Below are positions 47,079-57,588 of a stretch of DNA of 64,000 bases, piece after piece (positions within the stretch are counted from its first letter, which is position 1; every line of letters begins with the position of its first letter). Origin of the DNA: Vulcanimicrobiota bacterium (GTDB lineage: Bacteria > Vulcanimicrobiota > JAJTBE01); assembly GCA_021107945.1 (NCBI GenBank), contig JAIORV010000069.1, forward strand, positions 1-64,000, given 5' to 3'. Below the pieces are notes generated by a model, which did not search any database, had not been told where the DNA came from, and saw only the letters and a list, made by a program, of their open reading frames with translations. The translations under genes and the position numbers were made by a program.

Positions 47079-49061
47079 CTATGCAAACGCCACCAAATGG
47101 CCTGCGCTTGATACCAGGTATAATTGGTTGTGAGCGATCATGATCTGGGATACCGTGCGGTGACTCATTCCCATAATATGCCGGTCCTTTCCGGTGAAAG
47201 AGTCAATACTCCTCAGGTTTCTGCGGGAATCTACCATGTATATCATATTTGCTCCCAGGCAGAATGGGAATTCGAAATCCTTATCTTTCAACTCTTTTTC
47301 CCATATCGTATGTCCTCGTGCAGGATCAAGAGCTGTGAGCTTTCCGGTTCTTGTGACAAAGTATATCATATCCATGGTTGCCCGGACCGACTGTGTGATT
47401 GATCCCCTGAAATTCCTTGTCCAGATAGGGTCTCCCGTCTCGATATTAACGGCGCAAAGTGTGCCGTCGTGACTTCCCACAAATATAATATCGTTAACAA
47501 GGGTGGGCGATGCCGAGAAACCCGTTTCCGATTCATATTGCCATAATAACTCCTCGGAGTCAATATCTATGGCGCATATCATCTTCTTGAGAGAAGTTAC
47601 ATACAATATATTTTGATATACAATGGGAGATGATATAATATTTCCGTCGATTTCATAAGTTGTTAGAATTTCACCTTCAATCGCGTTTATGGCGAGTATC
47701 TTGCCGTTATAAAGCGGCACAAAAAGGATGTCATCATAAAGTGTGGGAGATGACATTGTAGAAGATTCAAGTTGGAGGTTCCAGTTGAATTCGTTCTTAC
47801 CCCTCTCGATTGAAACGAGAGTCAGTTTCGGAGTTATATAATACAGGGTATCGTCGGATGCAATCCCCGGTGTTGTCAGATTCTTACATATAAAGTATTT
47901 CCAGTCCACCTCTCCCGTTTCGTGATCGACGCAATAAATAATACCTTCCTTCTGGGTGGCATAAACAAAATCGCCGGCGGCAGTCAGAAAATATTTCTCG
48001 CCGGGTTTCATCTTGCATTTCCACTTCACATGAAGGGGAGGCTTTGGGGGGAGCCCGATACAATTTGTTCTGGCTTCGTTGCACAGGAGCATGCGCCATT
48101 CTGTCTTTTTTGTGCCTGCATCCTTATTCACAAAGTCCGAATAAAAATCAAAAGCGCGTAATGGCAGGGGAGAAACTTTTTGTTGTAAATCCCGCTTCAT
48201 ATCCCTCACATCATTGTAAGCGGAACGGAAATTTTTGCCGATGGCTTTTGTGACTATCTCCGACATTTCGTCCGATATATCGGGACGTATAGTTTTTAGC
48301 GGCGTGGACAAATCTAACGGCGATTGTATTAAATCTAAACCCGTCAGCAGATAAAACATAAAATTACCCAGGCAGAAAAGATCCCATGCTACCGTGTCAG
48401 AATGCCCTCCGGATTTACGGAAAGCCTGGAAATCCTCAGTTATCAGGTAGTGGGGACCCAGTATCTGCAACAGGACGGTCAGTCCCATATCTATAAAAAC
48501 AATATTTTCATCTTCCTTGCGAAACACAACCCCGGCAGGCTTGAAATCGGACAGGAAGAACGGCTCGTCATAGCTATGATGCAGGTATTCCATCAGGTCG
48601 CACATCTGAAGAGTCCAGAAGCTGACAAGCTTTTCGGGATAGCCGGTTCCCAGGAATATCTTGTGAGCTTCAAGGTACTTGGTCAGATCCAGTCCGTTTA
48701 TGAATTCATATACAACATAGAAATAATTGCCCTCAACAAAATAATTGGTAATTCTTGCGAGGTTTTTATGCGACAATTCCATGTATTTTGACATTGTGGA
48801 CTCAAAGTGACTCTGCAATATCACCTTCTCGGCGGCTGTCGTAAACTGGGGAAGAAACTCACGAACTGAATATACCCGGTTATTATCCTGGATATCCTCG
48901 GCCTCAAAAACCGCCCTGAAACTGGAAAAAACATAAGGCCTCGTCATCCTGTATCTTCCATGGATCAGAGTGGCGGACTCGGCGAGGGGGAATTCGCAAC
49001 CGGTACAGAATTCCGCTTCGTCTTCATTTTTATCTCCACATCTGGGGCAAACTATAGACAT
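47079..49061 (-). CDS. Zinc-ribbon pseudokinase-like protein with PQQ-type beta-propeller
   Basis: 660 residues from ATG at 49061 (GAGGGAG site; a TTG at 49073 is less likely). Zinc ribbon (CPRCGDKNEDEAEFCTGC), a kinase-like domain (~30-310), then an eight-or-so-bladed PQQ-like propeller (~330-660) with blades such as GTLCAVNIETGDPIWTRNF. Kinase motifs are degraded: no G-x-G loop, the ATP lysine position reads SVREFLPQ, HRD becomes LSD (FLSDFKPAGV, Asp and Lys kept) and DFG becomes DMG (FIDMGLT). It may be a pseudokinase that senses a ligand via the propeller. No membrane helix is seen. Confidence 0.7.
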   Translation of the reverse strand: MSIVCPRCGDKNEDEAEFCTGCEFPLAESATLIHGRYRMTRPYVFSSFRAVFEAEDIQDNNRVYSVREFLPQFTTAAEKVILQSHFESTMSKYMELSHKNLARITNYFVEGNYFYVVYEFINGLDLTKYLEAHKIFLGTGYPEKLVSFWTLQMCDLMEYLHHSYDEPFFLSDFKPAGVVFRKEDENIVFIDMGLTVLLQILGPHYLITEDFQAFRKSGGHSDTVAWDLFCLGNFMFYLLTGLDLIQSPLDLSTPLKTIRPDISDEMSEIVTKAIGKNFRSAYNDVRDMKRDLQQKVSPLPLRAFDFYSDFVNKDAGTKKTEWRMLLCNEARTNCIGLPPKPPLHVKWKCKMKPGEKYFLTAAGDFVYATQKEGIIYCVDHETGEVDWKYFICKNLTTPGIASDDTLYYITPKLTLVSIERGKNEFNWNLQLESSTMSSPTLYDDILFVPLYNGKILAINAIEGEILTTYEIDGNIISSPIVYQNILYVTSLKKMICAIDIDSEELLWQYESETGFSASPTLVNDIIFVGSHDGTLCAVNIETGDPIWTRNFRGSITQSVRATMDMIYFVTRTGKLTALDPARGHTIWEKELKDKDFEFPFCLGANMIYMVDSRRNLRSIDSFTGKDRHIMGMSHRTVSQIMIAHNQLYLVSSAGHLVAFA

Positions 49062-49329
49062 TTTCTCCCTCAAAATCTGATATTAAGTATAAAAAAGAAT
49101 TTCAAAGAATACAGGCAAAATCCTCCATGAATGATAGCGTTCACTTACGGCTGGTTTTTGTCTTTTTCGGAACCGGAAAACCCGATGAAATCGTGTTGGT
49201 CATAACCCGAGCATGCCATAAATGAACGGTCTCTTAACAATATTGTTACATTCAGTTTATTGATATTTATTAGCCAAACTGTTAAAATTAGATTAGAAAA
49301 GCAACTTATCTTACAAGGGGACATTGATA

Positions 49330-49895: not shown

Positions 49896-50942
49896 TCAGG
49901 ATAATATATCGTGTTTATATCCCCTCAACAACCTGTCAAGCTTTTTTGTGTCAGAGGCTGATTTCATGAATTGACCGGCTATGCCGGCAAATGTGCCTCC
50001 TCCGAATATAAGCTTATCTATTAAGCCACACGCGGTTTCCTGCGAGATGAGACCTTCGGTTTTTGCGAACACTATATCCGATGCAAGCTTCGAGCGGTGA
50101 TCGTTTATCTCCACGAGTCTCTTGTTGTAATCCTTCTCCCTGCCGTCAATAAGTATGATATTATAATATCCCTCAACGCCAAGGTTAAACCGGGATGCGC
50201 CGTTAACCGCCTCCAGAATCGCTATCATTCCCTCGACACGGTCAATTTTGCCTCTTTCCGGTATTGTTTTCCTGGAAAAGTAATCTGAAAGATGCAGGCT
50301 GGTAAGGTCGCGCCCCGAACCGTCAACGATAAATGCCGCCTGAACAGGTTCGTGAAAACATTCAATCATTGAGTAATGGAAAAGGCGGAATCCCTCCGAT
50401 TCTTCATATCCTGCGAGAATCCCCGCGTTAAGAAAGATCGGCGTGACCTCGTCATGCATATCCTTCCATGTGAGGAATTTCTCGACTTCCCGGATCACAT
50501 CTTTATCCTTTATCTCAATCTTGCGGCCGTCTCTCTCGTATGATCCCTGAACAAACTCCGGAGTATCAAAATTATACCTGCCCTTCAACTGGTCATTAAT
50601 GTGAGTATGCTTGAGATTCATTATCACCTGGAAAACAAGGTCTGAAATCTCCTCAAGGGTCATTAATTTATCGGGAATCTTACCCTCTTTTTCCGTTATC
50701 TTTTCAAGTTTCTCCAGAATTTTCTTCTGAATTGTCCACTTTATCTCGTCTCCCACCGTCGATGTGCCGGTGTTTCCATAAGCGGCAACAGTGCCGTACT
50801 TCCGGATCACCTCTTCAGGGATGCAGGGTTTGACTTTCTCGGCGGTATAAATCTTCATGTTTTCCTTGTTCCAGCATCTCGCTTCGTCGCATACACATGC
50901 ACCGGAATAGTCGTCAAATTTAATGGCGTTGATTGATGTCAT
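49896..50942 (-). CDS. Proteasome-like Ntn-hydrolase family protein, candidate catalytic subunit
   Basis: 348 residues. The ATG is followed by ACA, so Met removal would expose Thr as residue 1 (MTSINAIKFDDYSGACVCDE), as in HslV and proteasome beta chains. Asp19 and Lys36 sit near the catalytic Asp17 and Lys33 positions when counted from that Thr. Further family-like segments: ILAGYEESEGFRLFHY (175-190), VDGSG (206-210, compare the conserved G-S-G) and VEGYYNIILIDG (256-267). The usual D-x-x-S near the end is not conserved. It has an insert at ~80-165. Overlaps the paralogue's stop by 4 bases (ATGA). Similarity seen by eye only. Confidence 0.55.
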   Translation of the reverse strand: MTSINAIKFDDYSGACVCDEARCWNKENMKIYTAEKVKPCIPEEVIRKYGTVAAYGNTGTSTVGDEIKWTIQKKILEKLEKITEKEGKIPDKLMTLEEISDLVFQVIMNLKHTHINDQLKGRYNFDTPEFVQGSYERDGRKIEIKDKDVIREVEKFLTWKDMHDEVTPIFLNAGILAGYEESEGFRLFHYSMIECFHEPVQAAFIVDGSGRDLTSLHLSDYFSRKTIPERGKIDRVEGMIAILEAVNGASRFNLGVEGYYNIILIDGREKDYNKRLVEINDHRSKLASDIVFAKTEGLISQETACGLIDKLIFGGGTFAGIAGQFMKSASDTKKLDRLLRGYKHDILS

Positions 50943-52024
50943 TCTTCCTCACCCCGCTTTACAAGCTCAACTTCCTCTTGCCTCAAATTCCCCGGATCAA
51001 TCTTGTATCCCCGGAGGATGTATTTGAGAATCGCCGGGTTTTCTGCCTCCCGGAAAAATTCATCCTCCAATTCATCAAGCATGCCTTCGCCGGGCGGGTT
51101 ATCCTTAAACAGGATTTTTTCGACAAGAGATCTTGTCTTGTCCATCCCCAGCAATCTCTTGAGGTTCGCGGTAACCACTTCGCTTGCAAGCTTGACTTTT
51201 TGGGGATCAATATCGATGTACTTCTTCTCAGGATTCTCCTCATTACCGTTTATATAAGTCAAGCTGAAATATCCGCCTATGTCGATGAAGTAATTGCGGG
51301 CCTCTATGATTGAGGAAAGAAGGAGAATCATGCCGTCAACCGGATTGAATCCCTCACGCCTCTCACAATGAAACTTGTTGTTGAATGTCCGGGCGAATGT
51401 AATCCCCGCTCCGTATTTGCCGCTGCCGATGGATTCAAACCCCGTGAGGAAAGACAGGACGGTAACATCACCGGAGATGTGATATGCCTGGAAGCCCTCT
51501 TTTTTGTCATACCCCATGACTGCCGCTTTATTCTCGAAAATGTTTTTCAACGGTTCGGATTTATCTGCAAATGAAGCGATATCCCGAGCTTTCTTCTTGA
51601 CAGAATCCTGTTTGATATCGAATTTCTTGCCGTCTTTCTCGAAAAATCCCTGGTTCAACTCGTCGAGATTGAAGCCGAAGTAAAACATCAGCTTGTCATC
51701 AATCCGTCTGTGGATAACCGACCGGAGACATTTGAGCGTCTCCCTTGCCACATCTTCAAGAGTAAGACTATCCCTGTCTTTTGCAAGCCGGTTTATCGCT
51801 TTTCTCGCCTTTCTTACAACCTCGTAATGAAACGGCGGATAGCCCGCGCCTCCATAGGCGGCTTCGATATCAAATTTCTTCGATATCTCCGGTTCGAGAA
51901 GATTCCGGATATTCTCATCGAAATGAGTCCTTCTCCTCTCCAGGTACGCGGATTCCTCGTCGCATATCATCGCGCCCGATGATTTATCGAATCTGAGCAT
52001 GTTTACAATTCCCAGAATAATCAC
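50939..52024 (-). CDS. Proteasome-like Ntn-hydrolase paralogue, candidate non-catalytic subunit
   Basis: 361 residues from GTG at 52024; the longer start is supported because GIVNMLRFDKSSGAMICDEE lines up with TSINAIKFDDYSGACVCDE of the next gene. Gly sits where that protein has Thr, and no Lys is seen at the Lys36 position, so this copy is probably inactive. Family-like segments: VMGYDKKEGFQAYHI (169-183), ESIGSGKYG (197-205) and DIGGYFSLTYING (248-260), all in the order found in proteasome-type folds. Both paralogues share the insert motif Q-G-x-x-E-x-D-G-x-K-x-x-I-K. The pair is translationally coupled. Confidence 0.55.
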   Translation of the reverse strand: MIILGIVNMLRFDKSSGAMICDEESAYLERRRTHFDENIRNLLEPEISKKFDIEAAYGGAGYPPFHYEVVRKARKAINRLAKDRDSLTLEDVARETLKCLRSVIHRRIDDKLMFYFGFNLDELNQGFFEKDGKKFDIKQDSVKKKARDIASFADKSEPLKNIFENKAAVMGYDKKEGFQAYHISGDVTVLSFLTGFESIGSGKYGAGITFARTFNNKFHCERREGFNPVDGMILLLSSIIEARNYFIDIGGYFSLTYINGNEENPEKKYIDIDPQKVKLASEVVTANLKRLLGMDKTRSLVEKILFKDNPPGEGMLDELEDEFFREAENPAILKYILRGYKIDPGNLRQEEVELVKRGEEE

Positions 52025-52076
52025 CTCGTATTATTTATGTATTTATGCAGGAGAAGCTTCCAGCCTCGATATTATT

Positions 52077-52439
52077 TTAATATGCTCCCCCACCGGCTTC
52101 ATAGGCGGCTCTAATGACGAATTTCAATTCCTCGGTATCCAGCCAAATTCCCTCGCAAGCGAGACATTTATCAATGATAACCTTCTTTTTCCCCGAATAA
52201 TATACAGGATCCATTTTCACATCGCCGCATCTTGGGCAAAGGAGACTCTGTCCCGGAGGCCTGTCCTTGAGGTCTTTCGGTTTAACCGGTTCTCCGCCAA
52301 GAATATCCTTGTTCACGCCCACAATTCTTCCAAGCTCTCCCATGTCGAGCCATGTTCCGTCGCAATATGAGCATGAGTCTATAATTACGCCACAAAAATT
52401 TTCACTTTCCAGTTTTTGTCCGTCTCTGGGGCATCTCAT
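52077..52439 (-). CDS. Double TFIIB-type zinc-ribbon protein
   Basis: 120 residues from ATG at 52439 (AAGGAG eight bases before; GTG at 52448 is less likely). Two zinc ribbons of the zf-TFIIB (PF13453) type: MRCPRDGQKLESENFCGV with DSCSYCDGTWLDMGEL, and LLCPRCGDVKMDPVYYSG with DKCLACEGIWLDTEEL. The pattern C-x-x-C-x-G-x-W-L-D is diagnostic. Small cytoplasmic protein of unknown role, 52 bases upstream of the proteasome-like pair on the same strand and so probably in their operon. Confidence 0.85.
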   Translation of the reverse strand: MRCPRDGQKLESENFCGVIIDSCSYCDGTWLDMGELGRIVGVNKDILGGEPVKPKDLKDRPPGQSLLCPRCGDVKMDPVYYSGKKKVIIDKCLACEGIWLDTEELKFVIRAAYEAGGGAY

Positions 52440-52995
52440 CAAGATCACTCCTTGTTTGATATTAAATTGTCAATAAGTTTTTCAATAGCATAACCCCAAA
52501 ATCCTCCGGGAAATTATGTAAGGAAAATTGTATTTATTCACCACAAAGACCACAAAGGATAACGGAGAACAGAGGTCAGATGACGGAATTGTAGGAGGGA
52601 CGTCCCCGTCCCGATAAACGAATAATGCGGGCCGGCCTTGTAGGAGGGGTTTCCCAACCCCGATAAACAGATAGTGCAGGATGTACGTATTTTTTCACCA
52701 CGAAGCCACGAAGAACACGAAGAATAAAATAGATTACGGATGCCGGATTTCCATATAAAAAACTCTGCGTTCTCCGCGAACTCTGCGGTGGATAATCAAT
52801 CGGGAAAAGAGATGTCCGGGTTCAGGCTGATTATCTGCACTTTTTTTGCGGGAAGGATTACCGGGAAGGAAGAGGAAAATTAAAAAATGGAGGACTTCAG
52901 TCCTTCATGCAAAGGAAAGCTGAAGCTTTCCGCTACCGGCATTTGAGGATAATGTAACATTGTCAAGATAATCAATGTTGAAGGAGGGAGTAATT
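52440..52995. repeat. Repeat-filled divergent gap
   Basis: About 550 bases with no gene. It carries 'caccacaaagaccacaaagg' (52540-52560), 'gtaggagggacgtccccgtcccgataaa' (52591-52618), 'gtaggaggggtttcccaaccccgataaa' (52640-52667), 'caccacgaagccacgaagaac' (52697-52720), 'actctgcgttctccgcgaactctgcggtgg' (52762-52792) and 'ggaggacttcagtccttc' / 'gctgaagctttccgctacc' (52890-52938). Promoters for the flanking divergent operons must be among these. Confidence 0.75.
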
Positions 52996-53526: not shown

Positions 53527-54726
53527 GTGCAGAATAAGAGAATAATTGACATAGTTGAATACGGAACGATGGGACCCACCGAGATGGTGCATAAATTCCC
53601 CGAGTCCGGCGTGGGCGACATCAGATGGGGAGCCCAGCTTATTGTCCGCGAGACTCAGGCAGTCGTATTTTTCAAAGACGGTAAAGCTCTGGACACATTT
53701 GAACCTGGGCGATACACTCTCACGACAAATAATATTCCATTTCTTGCAGGCCTCGTTTCCAAGATAACACAGGGTGGCAAGACCCCATTCCAGGCGGAAG
53801 CATATTTCGTTAACACCAAGATATTCCATGACATGAAATGGGGCACTCCCCAGCCCATTGATTTGCAGGATCCCGATCTCGGATGGGTTTCTTTAAGAGC
53901 ATTCGGGACATACTCCATCAAGGTTACTGATCCTCAGTTGTTTGTAAATACACTGGTAGGCACCGAGGGGATGTATGACACACAAACCATCCAGCGTTTT
54001 CTGAAGGGAAGCATTCGCACTCACTTTAACGATCTTATCGGCACGACTTTCAAGTCATACGGCAAGATTCGCAGTGAATTCGAGGAACTTTCAGCCGCTA
54101 TGAAATTCAAGGTGAAAGAAGACTTTGAGAAATACGGTCTTGAGGTTCGTGATTTCTTTCTCCAGGATATTTCCGTTCCCGAGGAGATACAGGATGCGTT
54201 CAAGGAAAGAGCCCGCATGGGCGCGCTGGGCGATATGGGCAAATTTATGCAGTACAAGACCGCAACCGCAATCGGCGATATGGCGACCAAACCCGCGGGA
54301 GGCGGCGGCGACCCCATGAACGCCGGTATGGGACTGGGAATGGGTATGATGATGCCCCAGATGATGGGTCAGGCAATGACAGGGGCAATGGGCGGACAGC
54401 AGATGGGACAGACACAACAGCAGGTTCAACCGGGGCAACCACAGCCTGTTCCTGCGGCGGCTCCGCAACAACAGATGATGGCTTGTCCCCATTGCAATGC
54501 GCAAATAACCGCCGGGACAAAATTTTGCCCCAATTGTGGAAAACCCGCCGCTCCACCCAAACCGAAATGTCCCAAATGTCAGGCGGAAGTTGAGCCCGGC
54601 TCGAAGTTCTGCCCAAGTTGTGGACAACCGATGGCGCAACAGCAGCCAAAATGTTCCAAATGTCAGGCGGAGTTAAAACCGGGAGTGAAGTTCTGCCCCA
54701 ATTGCGGTACAAAAAGTGAGGGGTAA
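53527..54726 (+). CDS. SPFH/Band 7 protein with C-terminal zinc ribbons
   Basis: 399 residues from GTG at 53527. Residues ~25-250 are an SPFH-domain protein of the 'virion core protein-like' type (MVHKFPESGVGDIRWGAQLI, LIVRETQAVVFFKDGKALD, FEPGRYTLTTNNIPFLAGLV, KYGLEVRDFFLQDISVPEEI). A Gly/Met/Gln-rich linker is followed by three zinc ribbons (ACPHCNAQITAGTKFCPNCG, CPKCQAEVEPGSKFCPSCG, CSKCQAELKPGVKFCPNCG). SPFH proteins form membrane-associated ring or lattice assemblies. Middle gene of a three-gene operon. Confidence 0.8.
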   Translation: MQNKRIIDIVEYGTMGPTEMVHKFPESGVGDIRWGAQLIVRETQAVVFFKDGKALDTFEPGRYTLTTNNIPFLAGLVSKITQGGKTPFQAEAYFVNTKIFHDMKWGTPQPIDLQDPDLGWVSLRAFGTYSIKVTDPQLFVNTLVGTEGMYDTQTIQRFLKGSIRTHFNDLIGTTFKSYGKIRSEFEELSAAMKFKVKEDFEKYGLEVRDFFLQDISVPEEIQDAFKERARMGALGDMGKFMQYKTATAIGDMATKPAGGGGDPMNAGMGLGMGMMMPQMMGQAMTGAMGGQQMGQTQQQVQPGQPQPVPAAAPQQQMMACPHCNAQITAGTKFCPNCGKPAAPPKPKCPKCQAEVEPGSKFCPSCGQPMAQQQPKCSKCQAELKPGVKFCPNCGTKSEG

Positions 54727-54801
54727 ACCGGAAGGATAAGAGAATTATATATAGGATATTTTTGTGTATTTTGGTGGAAAAAATAAAGCGAGGTGAGGAA
54801 T

Positions 54802-55656
54802 TTGAAAGGTTCACGAATTATCGGCATCGCCATCGTTATCATACTGGTAGTAGTAGTCGGTTACCTGGGAATCAGAGGGTACATGTATTATAGCGAAACC
54901 GGTGAGATGGACATTCCAATGGCTCTCATGGGAGAGAGATACTCCGGTAACGTGGTGGAATTTGACGAGGAAATAGTGAAAATTGAAACTACCGATGGGA
55001 ATTTAGAACAATTTGTAATCACTAAAGAAACCAAGAAAGTATTGGGTGACAAGGGTCTGGGAAAAGGCCTTTATGTGATGATCATCTACAAGCCTATAAA
55101 GGTTGAAGGTAAGATCCAGAGACTCGCCAAGGTCATCAAGATTGTAAAGGGAGGACCGGAGAAAACTCCAATAGAACCGGGGAAAGAACCGGAACCCGAC
55201 AAGACAGAACCTGGCAAGGAGCCCGTTGAGCCCGGAAAAGAACCAGTTGAACCTGGCAAAGAACCTGAGCCCGGAAAAGAACCCGGTAAGACAGAACCTG
55301 GCAAGGAGCCACCAAAGGCCGAACCTGGAAAAGAACCTGTTGAGCCCGGAAAAGAACCCGGCAAGATAGAACCTGGCAAAGAGCCTCCAAAAGCCGAGCC
55401 TGGAAAAGAACCTGTTGTGCCCGGAAAAGAACCCGGCAAGATGGAACCCGGCAAGGAGCCCGGAGGAGAACCGCCGCCGGTGGAACCTCCAAGAGTTGAC
55501 AAAGGAAAAGCTCCTGAAGCCGATATCAAAGCTCCTGAAGGAAAGACAGAGCCGCCTCCAGGCGATGTCAAACCTCCTGATGAAAAGAAAGCGGACGAAT
55601 CAGGCGTTAAGAAGATTACCGATGAGGAGTTAAAGAAACCGGGAACGATACAGTAA
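54802..55656 (+). CDS. Single-pass membrane protein with GKEP repeats
   Basis: 284 residues from TTG at 54802 (GAGG eight bases before; a GTG at 54793 is too close to it). One transmembrane helix near residues 5-26 (RIIGIAIVIILVVVVGYLGI), a small beta domain (SGNVVEFDEEIVKIETTDGN) that may be OB-like, then over 100 residues of low-complexity repeats built on P-G-K-E-P (for example EPGKEPVEPGKEPGKIEPGK). The repeat tail is highly charged and extended, as in spacer or wall-spanning regions. Third gene of the SPFH operon; a terminator follows. Confidence 0.65.
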   Translation: MKGSRIIGIAIVIILVVVVGYLGIRGYMYYSETGEMDIPMALMGERYSGNVVEFDEEIVKIETTDGNLEQFVITKETKKVLGDKGLGKGLYVMIIYKPIKVEGKIQRLAKVIKIVKGGPEKTPIEPGKEPEPDKTEPGKEPVEPGKEPVEPGKEPEPGKEPGKTEPGKEPPKAEPGKEPVEPGKEPGKIEPGKEPPKAEPGKEPVVPGKEPGKMEPGKEPGGEPPPVEPPRVDKGKAPEADIKAPEGKTEPPPGDVKPPDEKKADESGVKKITDEELKKPGTIQ

Positions 55657-55745: not shown

Positions 55746-56825
55746 TCATTCTTTAATTAACATGTCAAATATATTGTCTATTGAATTATCCGCTTCAAAT
55801 TCAATTCTTTTAATTATCTCCCTATTATGGTGTTCTTCAGGAAAAGCTCTTGACTTTAGAGAAGGTATGCTTCCTTTTCTCTGCCTTGTGAATTTATATG
55901 TTGAGACATCGTTGACACCCTTCTTTTTAGCGTATTCCCTTAATGTCTTTAAATTTGGAAAATTAAGATTTGAATCAGGTTGACAAGAAATTCTTTGATT
56001 GGCTATCGAAACATATTCCTCGTTTATTTCAGCACCACAATAGAATCGATTTAATCTTTTAGCTACTACTGCTGTAGTTCCAACACCCATAAACGGGTCT
56101 AATACTATGTCCCCTGGAACAGTTGTGCATAGAATTATTCTTCTAACCAGATCCTCTGGAAATTGTGCAGGGTGAACTGTGTCTTCCTCGTGATTATGCC
56201 TGACATTTCTAAATGCCCAAATGTCTCCAGGATTCTTCCCAAGTGGATCACAAGACAATTCCCCCTTTTTTTCTCCTTTCCAATATTTCTTGTTTGAATA
56301 TTTTTGTGGAACTTTTATAGGATCCAAAAAAAAATTATAGTTCATTGTTTTTGTAAACCATAATATTGTCTCATATCTCCCTGAAAATTTTAATTTGGCA
56401 TGAACTCCATGTGGTCTTATCCATACTATTCGATTTCTTGGAATCATTCCCAGGGATTCTAATATTGGGAAGAAACGTATATCCAAAGGTATGTGATATT
56501 TGTTGTTATCAACATAAGTTCCAACCTGCCAGAAAATTGAACCTTTTGACTTTAGAGTCCTGTGGCATTCAGCAAGAATATTTTTTTGCCAATTGAGATA
56601 GGATTCAATTGGTTTTCTATCATTCTCAACTTTACCGATATTATAAGGAGGCGAAGAGACAATAAGATCAACTGACTCATTTGGCAGGTTTCGTAATAGT
56701 TTAAGACAATCGCCACAAGAAATATTATTCAATAAATTATTAGAGATATTCTTTGGTGATGAAATTATTTGCTCTTCTTCTAATCCAAAATGATTTGCTA
56801 AATCGAAAAATGTGAGTTGCTCCAT
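55746..56825 (-). CDS. Type II DNA methyltransferase, beta class (N4-cytosine or N6-adenine)
   Basis: 359 residues. Catalytic motif IV is SPPY at residues 58-61 (DLIVSSPPYNIGK) and the AdoMet-binding motif I comes near the C-terminus (DPFMGVGTTAVVAKRLNRFY); this order marks the beta class. SPPY is the form usual for N4-methylcytosine enzymes, as in M.BglII-type methylases. It protects host DNA from the neighbouring BglII/BstYI-like endonuclease. Order C-R-M on the minus strand, with a perfect 34-base palindrome in the gap before it. The region is AT-rich compared with neighbours, suggesting acquisition. Confidence 0.9.
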   Translation of the reverse strand: MEQLTFFDLANHFGLEEEQIISSPKNISNNLLNNISCGDCLKLLRNLPNESVDLIVSSPPYNIGKVENDRKPIESYLNWQKNILAECHRTLKSKGSIFWQVGTYVDNNKYHIPLDIRFFPILESLGMIPRNRIVWIRPHGVHAKLKFSGRYETILWFTKTMNYNFFLDPIKVPQKYSNKKYWKGEKKGELSCDPLGKNPGDIWAFRNVRHNHEEDTVHPAQFPEDLVRRIILCTTVPGDIVLDPFMGVGTTAVVAKRLNRFYCGAEINEEYVSIANQRISCQPDSNLNFPNLKTLREYAKKKGVNDVSTYKFTRQRKGSIPSLKSRAFPEEHHNREIIKRIEFEADNSIDNIFDMLIKE

Positions 56826-56922: not shown

Positions 56923-57588
56923 TTAAATGACTTCAATTGAAAAAATTTTACTTCGCTTCCTCCTATTAATTTCTATAACTATATCTTTCTGTTTTGAAAT
57001 TTTTCGAGAATATCTCTTCGAAGTATATTTTGTCCATATAGCTGGAATTCTTTTATTTGTTTCTTCAAATAGCCCAACCAGTCTTATTGGAACCGCAAAA
57101 AGGGCGTTTTTAGCCATAGCGTTTAATTGGTGCTTTGCTTGTTCGTAATAAAGAGTGCTATTTGAAGATGGAAACATATGTGCTTTTGTCACTATAATAA
57201 CAACTTTGGTCTCAATATCTCCCACCTTAAATTTACTCTTAAACAGTAGTTCTGAACGTAATGTATTATTTAATAAGAAAGGATAATTTGAGAACTGAAC
57301 CTCCAAGAGTGCTCCCGATTTTCCAAAATCAATATCAGTTCCTAAAAAACTATAATTGGATGGAATTGGTATTGAATTTATCCAACCTTTTTCAACAAGC
57401 TTTTCTTTAATGAAGTTGTTAGTTCCAACAACATCAAAAATCGGAGTTCCTTGTTTGCCTTTTTGGTCTGAAGCTTTTAAATGAAGAGGAAGATTAACAA
57501 GCACTTCATTTAATTCATTCCATTCATCCTTTAGAAACTCATTAATGACTTTTGAAGAAGAATTATAGTCTGTTGTCGTAACTATCAA
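56923..57588 (-). CDS. Type II restriction endonuclease, BglII/BstYI-like
   Basis: 221 residues from a TTG at 57588, three bases after the controller stop, with GGAGAG upstream. The active-site segment GTDIDFGKSGALLEVQ has Asp87, Glu96 and Gln98, the same 9- and 11-residue spacing as Asp84, Glu93 and Gln95 of BglII. The following FSNYPFLLNN and RSELLFKSKFKVGDIETKVV fit the same fold. BglII and BstYI cut AGATCT and RGATCY; the exact site here cannot be read from sequence. Length (about 220) is close to BglII (223). Confidence 0.75.
   Translation of the reverse strand: MIVTTTDYNSSSKVINEFLKDEWNELNEVLVNLPLHLKASDQKGKQGTPIFDVVGTNNFIKEKLVEKGWINSIPIPSNYSFLGTDIDFGKSGALLEVQFSNYPFLLNNTLRSELLFKSKFKVGDIETKVVIIVTKAHMFPSSNSTLYYEQAKHQLNAMAKNALFAVPIRLVGLFEETNKRIPAIWTKYTSKRYSRKISKQKDIVIEINRRKRSKIFSIEVI

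Follow-up and report, generated by a model that had tools for sequence, protein, structure and literature searches.

The 64,000-nucleotide (nt) window analyzed here, the whole stretch of DNA from positions 1 to 64,000 of contig JAIORV010000069.1 of a Vulcanimicrobiota bacterium, carries two overlapping genes, which we call A and B. We propose that their products probably assemble into one mixed, proteasome-like particle whose amide-bond cleavage is carried out by A alone. The predicted fold, the pattern of active-site residues, the adjacency of the genes and the mirrored trees were computed for A and B, and from these we infer assembly and peptidase activity. The pairing of an active with an inactive subunit, which the original prediction had read from this DNA alone, is supported at the level of sequence by the residue pattern, by gene adjacency in three bacterial lineages and by the mirrored trees of the two proteins. 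The features of the pair are listed below; residue counts refer to 35 A and 29 B proteins aligned, and those for Asp281 and Ser284 in A to the 34 A proteins having that region.

49896..50942 (-): gene A, N-terminal-threonine proteasome-like subunit with a complete active site, 348 amino acids (aa); from the open reading frame (ORF), AlphaFold2 (AF2), Foldseek and residue conservation
50939..52015 (-): gene B, paralog in which nucleophile, Lys and Ser129 equivalent are all missing, starting probably at a CTG; from the ORF, AF2 and Foldseek
50939..50942 (-): ATGA, overlap of the B stop and the A start, gap of -4 as in 12/28 pairs
52021..52027 (-): Shine-Dalgarno-like GAGGTGA, 5 nt ahead of the CTG of B; from sequence
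50937..50939 (-): codon of Thr2 of A (Thr1 once Met is removed), T in 35/35 A and in no B
50886..50888 (-): Asp19 of A (Asp17 equivalent), D in 35/35 A and 29/29 B
50835..50837 (-): Lys36 of A (Lys33 equivalent), K in 35/35 A and 0/29 B
50316..50318 (-): Ser209 of A in the G-S-G motif (Ser129 equivalent), S in 35/35 A and 2/29 B
50091..50102 (-): D281-H-R-S284 of A (Asp166/Ser169 equivalent), D in 33/34 A and 14/29 B

Because Thr comes straight after the initiator Met in every A protein, no propeptide would be needed. Residue 2 of B is Ala, Ser or Gly throughout, and a thirtieth B protein, read separately, begins (M)ALVN. The residues by which membership in the proteasome-like family has been judged, Thr1/Ser1, Asp17 and Lys33 (PMC8665760), are each present in all A proteins, whereas B has lost the Thr and the Lys. 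Position 56 of A, which is Gly in 32/35 A proteins, aligns with the oxyanion Gly47 and is a candidate equivalent of it. Five B proteins have Ser at residue 2, which raised the question of a second active site. Since none of the five has either the Lys or the G-S-G Ser, they are unlikely to be active.

Most of the original prediction agrees with these data. It had placed two overlapping genes here, with motifs shared between their products, Thr in A and Gly in B after the start, and no matching Lys in B, all of which the ORFs and a check of the sequences bear out. The Asp19 and Lys36 that it located close to catalytic positions of A are invariant equivalents of Asp17 and Lys33, and the conservation of Thr2 among close homologs, on which it had staked the assignment, is complete in A and nil in B. 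It erred in regarding the terminal D-x-x-S motif as not conserved: the motif is present in A, with the Asp in all but one protein and S (19), A (14) or T (1) at the position of Ser284.

The AF2 models, for which the input alignment consisted of family members only, have a predicted local distance difference test score (pLDDT) of 88.1 for A and 87.9 for B, and a predicted template modeling score (pTM) of 0.85 for each. In a Foldseek search of the PDB, the top match of A is a mycobacterial 20S chain (7pxa; E-value of 2.8e-10), followed by other bacterial 20S chains. The 20S subunits matched by A are nearly all bacterial and include 7pxa, 3hfa and 1q5q, with template modeling (TM) scores by target of 0.75-0.77 within a range of about 0.65-0.77 for its bacterial 20S matches; the Anbu structure 5nyw is also among its top 50. 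B matches first a T1A-mutant bacterial proteasome beta subunit (E-value of 5.8e-9), with an archaeal alpha chain at rank 3. Proteasome subunits and Anbu account for all of the best 50 PDB matches listed for each model, and in a sequence-profile search of the PDB made without structure, 31 of 31 weak matches are proteasome subunits. A proteasome-type N-terminal nucleophile (Ntn) hydrolase fold, whose absence from predicted structures the original prediction had named as grounds for abandoning it, is thus supported for the models of both proteins.

In the model of A, strands and helices follow the order of a beta subunit, with a long H1 (61-86) and H2 (96-123), an extra module at approximately 124-172 (helix, beta hairpin, helix) after H2, and a C-terminal helical extension of about 50 residues. 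The model of B has the same fold, all core elements and a similar length. An extra insert had been anticipated at approximately 80-165; the predicted module exists, but its bounds were misplaced, since residues 61-123 form the ordinary H1 and H2.

A mechanical ORF call for B spans 50939-52024 (-), with a GTG start and 361 aa; in it, B lies upstream of A and overlaps it by 4 nt. The start of B is probably the CTG at 52015 instead, because the GTG at 52024 falls within the Shine-Dalgarno-like GAGGTGA and because the resulting (M)GIVN is in register with the starts of all other B proteins, which have Ala, Ser or Gly where B would have Gly as residue 2. The segment 52013-52027 (-) thus combines an apparent CTG start with a 7-nt Shine-Dalgarno-like match, and the codon of the relatives at the start is ATG, GTG or TTG. 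Translational coupling of B and A through the ATGA overlap is likely.

Pairing is conserved across genomes, a check that the original prediction had proposed. In all 28 cases surveyed, a B gene is followed directly by an A gene of the same strand, with gaps of -4 to +99 nt: besides the 12 pairs that overlap by 4 nt, 4 overlap by 1 nt, and the others are spaced by at most 33 nt except the one at 99. Three further genomes have the same B-A arrangement. No lone B was found, and three A genes lack their own B: one is an extra A behind a B-A pair (L066) and two stand alone (L007 and L004), all with the invariant A residues. At one locus (L091; G060 contig C154, 11201-14437), B is followed by two tandem A genes, the second of which is the longest branch of the tree.

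In the phylogenetic tree, A and B form reciprocal clades with support of 100 and 99, implying one duplication older than the spread of the pair over these lineages. The distances among A proteins correlate with those among their B partners (r = 0.78, 27 pairs). The best of 5000 shuffles gave 0.30 and the best of 5000 swaps of partners within genomes 0.72, both below this value; partners have therefore stayed together and have not been exchanged between pairs of one genome. In comparisons of hidden Markov models (HMM-HMM), A matches B with an E-value of 2e-83 and proteasome beta with 3.5e-4. Because A and B are far more similar to each other than either is to alpha or beta, the split into active and inactive subunits most likely arose apart from that of the 20S proteasome, and a single duplication within the family means that the pair does not derive from 20S alpha and beta.

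At their cut-offs, the families of Pfam, NCBIfam and PADLOC all miss A and B; the curated cut-off of PF00227 is not reached, the best member having an E-value of 0.02 in one alignment (A4) and 0.16 in another (A3). A scan of genome contigs with a single sequence returned no relatives, and an A-type alignment was required to detect them. With that alignment, a scan of genomes of 84,980 species found relatives in CSSED10-310 and in Ignavibacteria/Bacteroidetes metagenome-assembled genomes (MAGs). The family is present in 16 genomes belonging to the phylum of the window, to CSSED10-310 and to the Ignavibacteria class. The genome of the window has five members: the window pair, a second pair on contig C14 and, on C42, an unpaired A. 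Another genome of its phylum has nine (four pairs and an unpaired A), and 56 other genomes of that phylum have none, profile search included. Two to nine members occur in 7/8 genomes of CSSED10-310, exactly one pair in each of 7/294 genomes sampled from the class of the Ignavibacteria MAGs, and the family in 1/396 of a sample of the wider phylum around them. The MAG JAKJGF, labeled Bacillota by its depositor, has contigs that match G003, grouped in the phylum of the window. No relatives were found among viral contigs, phages and plasmids, so as far as those collections show this is not a mobile or phage gene. The commonest match in PHROGs is the HslV peptidase family, which is weak (E-value of 0.006), and the top viral match is a phage protein annotated as HslV. 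A role in defense was considered and rejected, as PADLOC gave only weak matches to single members (best E-value of 0.009).

If A and B form a mixed particle, B would be made first and, through coupled translation, join A, either alternating with it in a ring or stacked upon it. Methionine aminopeptidase would remove the Met and free Thr1 of A, which would hydrolyze peptide bonds in unfolded or specific substrates, with B shaping the entrance, the chamber or allosteric control. Cytosolic aminopeptidases and M20/M29 peptidases would finish the products. Because no dedicated unfoldase gene is linked to the pairs, the substrates may be unfolded proteins or peptides, or a general AAA chaperone may be borrowed. 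Where a genome has two to four divergent pairs, it would contain several such particles with differing substrates.

Several points weigh against such a particle. The HMM-HMM match of A to beta is weak: set against E-values of 0.1-0.6 for controls, it is no more than suggestive. Anbu shares the triad of A and showed no peptidase activity on standard substrates (PMC6376114). The 124-172 insert of A occupies the pore-loop site, where, according to an earlier argument, inserts of PMI and PHI proteins would clash with ring closure (PMC8665760), and a classical barrel is therefore not assured. Dozens of AAA domains are encoded per genome, yet no AAA gene consistently adjoining the pairs was found; the original prediction had likewise seen no AAA unfoldase in the window, and there is none among the window proteins scanned. 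The three A genes without their own B may mean that some A proteins act alone.

Four alternatives can be set beside the mixed particle. It is possible, albeit on the doubtful side, that the pair is one of 22 proteasome homologs catalogued in 2021, most plausibly in the PMI/PHI range, so that the pairing alone would be new; this is compatible with a mixed particle. Fuchs et al. (2021) described 22 new proteasome-like families, some with an insert after H1/H2 (PMC8665760). They checked the conservation of active-site residues in their clusters, residues that B has lost, and the lineages that carry A and B are not separately named in their table. The words paralog, operon and tandem are absent from the main text of that paper, which states that genomic context suggested no function (PMC8665760). 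Our literature search, covering open-licence papers, found no report of such active/inactive pairs.

We consider it unlikely that A, together with B, is a narrow-substrate transpeptidase, ligase or amidase resembling connectase, with B binding or presenting the substrate. Connectase does provide a precedent, as it has a proteasome-like fold and the same triad and acts as a ligase (PMC8665760), and an ATP-grasp gene, a kind that also belongs to the Anbu operon (PMC6376114), lies downstream of the pair in two CSSED10-310 genomes. However, A retains H1 and H2 and has no connectase-type S3-S4 insertion, the ATP-grasp link is confined to two loci, and M20 and M29 peptidase neighbors suit peptide breakdown better. 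Still less probable, in our view, is a homo-oligomeric enzyme A attended by B as a non-stoichiometric pseudoenzyme acting as chaperone, inhibitor or substrate adaptor. The A genes that lack their own B while keeping the invariant residues would fit such an enzyme, whereas B never occurs without A and has the length of A, the full core fold and a mirrored tree, which argue for an integral partner. That the pair belongs to another Ntn-hydrolase branch or resembles proteasome subunits by chance, as the silence of Pfam, NCBIfam and PADLOC at their cut-offs could suggest, is extremely improbable and, at the level of the predicted fold, refuted by the structural matches, by the HslV-annotated viral match and by the T, D, K, GSG and D elements, which are ordered and conserved as in the proteasome.

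Besides the pair itself, no family recurs as a neighbor in more than four of the loci. One pair subtype has an M20 peptidase gene 18-30 nt upstream in three CSSED10-310 genomes. In two of the three, a gene 51 nt downstream of the pair encodes an ATP-grasp protein that is circularly permuted and scores just below the Pfam cut-offs. A fourth genome has its M20 and ATP-grasp genes side by side, with no pair between. This run of M20 peptidase, B, A and ATP-grasp was noted in CSSED10-310 at L086:7062-11935, L095:7029-11875, L089:10481-11725 and L101:1895-4735, with the M20 and ATP-grasp genes of L101 adjacent without the pair. An M29 aminopeptidase gene lies 60 nt downstream of another pair. The M20 and M29 neighbors are compatible with a role in peptide breakdown. 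We recognized no hslU beside any pair, and a Pfam scan of flanking genes revealed neither alphaE nor transglutaminase. PF00227 proteins, mostly HslV, occur in 10/14 genomes searched; the host genome has a true HslV (L001), and four CSSED10-310 genomes have no PF00227 match. Two genomes of the CSSED10-310 phylum (G059 and G464; loci L105 and L106) carry alpha and beta genes followed by an apparent Pup-ligase-type gene.

In the window itself, the TFIIB-type zinc-ribbon gene that had been noted just upstream in the same direction is confirmed:

52077..52448 (-): zinc-ribbon protein (PF13453, E-value of 5.5e-21), 123 aa, 52 nt upstream of B and in the same direction

No such gene lies beside the other pairs examined, and its membership in the system is doubtful. 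Kinase or kinase-propeller genes near four pairs (the window, L016, L019 and L090) were rejected as partners, being common genes in varying positions; the one in the window (47079-49073, -) encodes a 664-aa protein with a zinc ribbon, a kinase-like domain and a PQQ/BamB-type propeller. Approximately 1.1 kb past the zinc-ribbon gene is a gene for an SPFH/Band_7 protein with several C-terminal double zinc ribbons (53527-54726, +). It is followed by a gene for a protein with many tandem EPGKEP-type repeats (54793-55656, +) and by that of a probable site-specific DNA methyltransferase with an SPPYN motif (55746-56825, -), which a 221-aa ORF (56923-57588), a candidate restriction partner, adjoins.

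Dead proteasome subunits, and how one subunit type becomes two, are a long-standing question for which, to our knowledge, essentially one prokaryotic case is known. We put at about even the chance that A and B represent a second, independent two-subunit (catalytic plus structural) proteasome-like protease, an obligate pair that arose by ancient duplication in a divergent family, with two to four co-evolving pairs per genome, each having its own particle and substrates, in hosts that mostly also keep HslV. With its roughly 30 pairs, which differ widely in age, such a case would be an independent replicate for the dead-subunit question and could show the residues that a dead partner loses first, the surfaces that persist and whether coexisting pairs remain private. 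It also adds a protease-like family that is invisible to Pfam and found in uncultured lineages known through metagenome assemblies.

Among known systems, HslV shares Thr1/Asp/Lys and G-S-G with A. It is a homomeric protein of about 180 aa encoded beside hslU, whereas A and B are about 350 aa long, paired and without hslU, and their HMM-HMM similarity to HslV is no better than to unrelated controls. Anbu resembles A in its Ntn fold with Thr1/Asp17/Lys33, and an ATP-grasp gene is found near some pairs; unlike the two genes A and B, which have an ATP-grasp neighbor at 2 loci, Anbu is a single gene in a four-gene operon with ATP-grasp, alphaE and transglutaminase. Connectase is likewise a distant proteasome relative with Thr1 and no propeptide, but it lacks H1/H2, which A has, and carries a two-helix insertion between S3 and S4, which A does not. 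PHI, PMI-3 and PMI-4, compared by description only, share with the pair an insert that follows H1/H2, the absence of a propeptide and of a linked AAA gene, and a large distance from the proteasome, and are described as single families with active-site residues, not as active/inactive pairs.

The 20S proteasome (prcB/prcA of Actinobacteria, PF00227) likewise has two homologous subunits with a shared core fold, one with Thr1 and one without, and bacterial beta chains are the best structural matches of the A and B models. A and B differ in coming from a duplication inside their own family and not being orthologous to alpha and beta, and they are missed by PF00227. A has no propeptide, and B starts at strand S1, without the N-terminal gating helix H0. 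In the new pair, the inactive gene precedes the active one, and there are an added module after H2 and added C-terminal helices.
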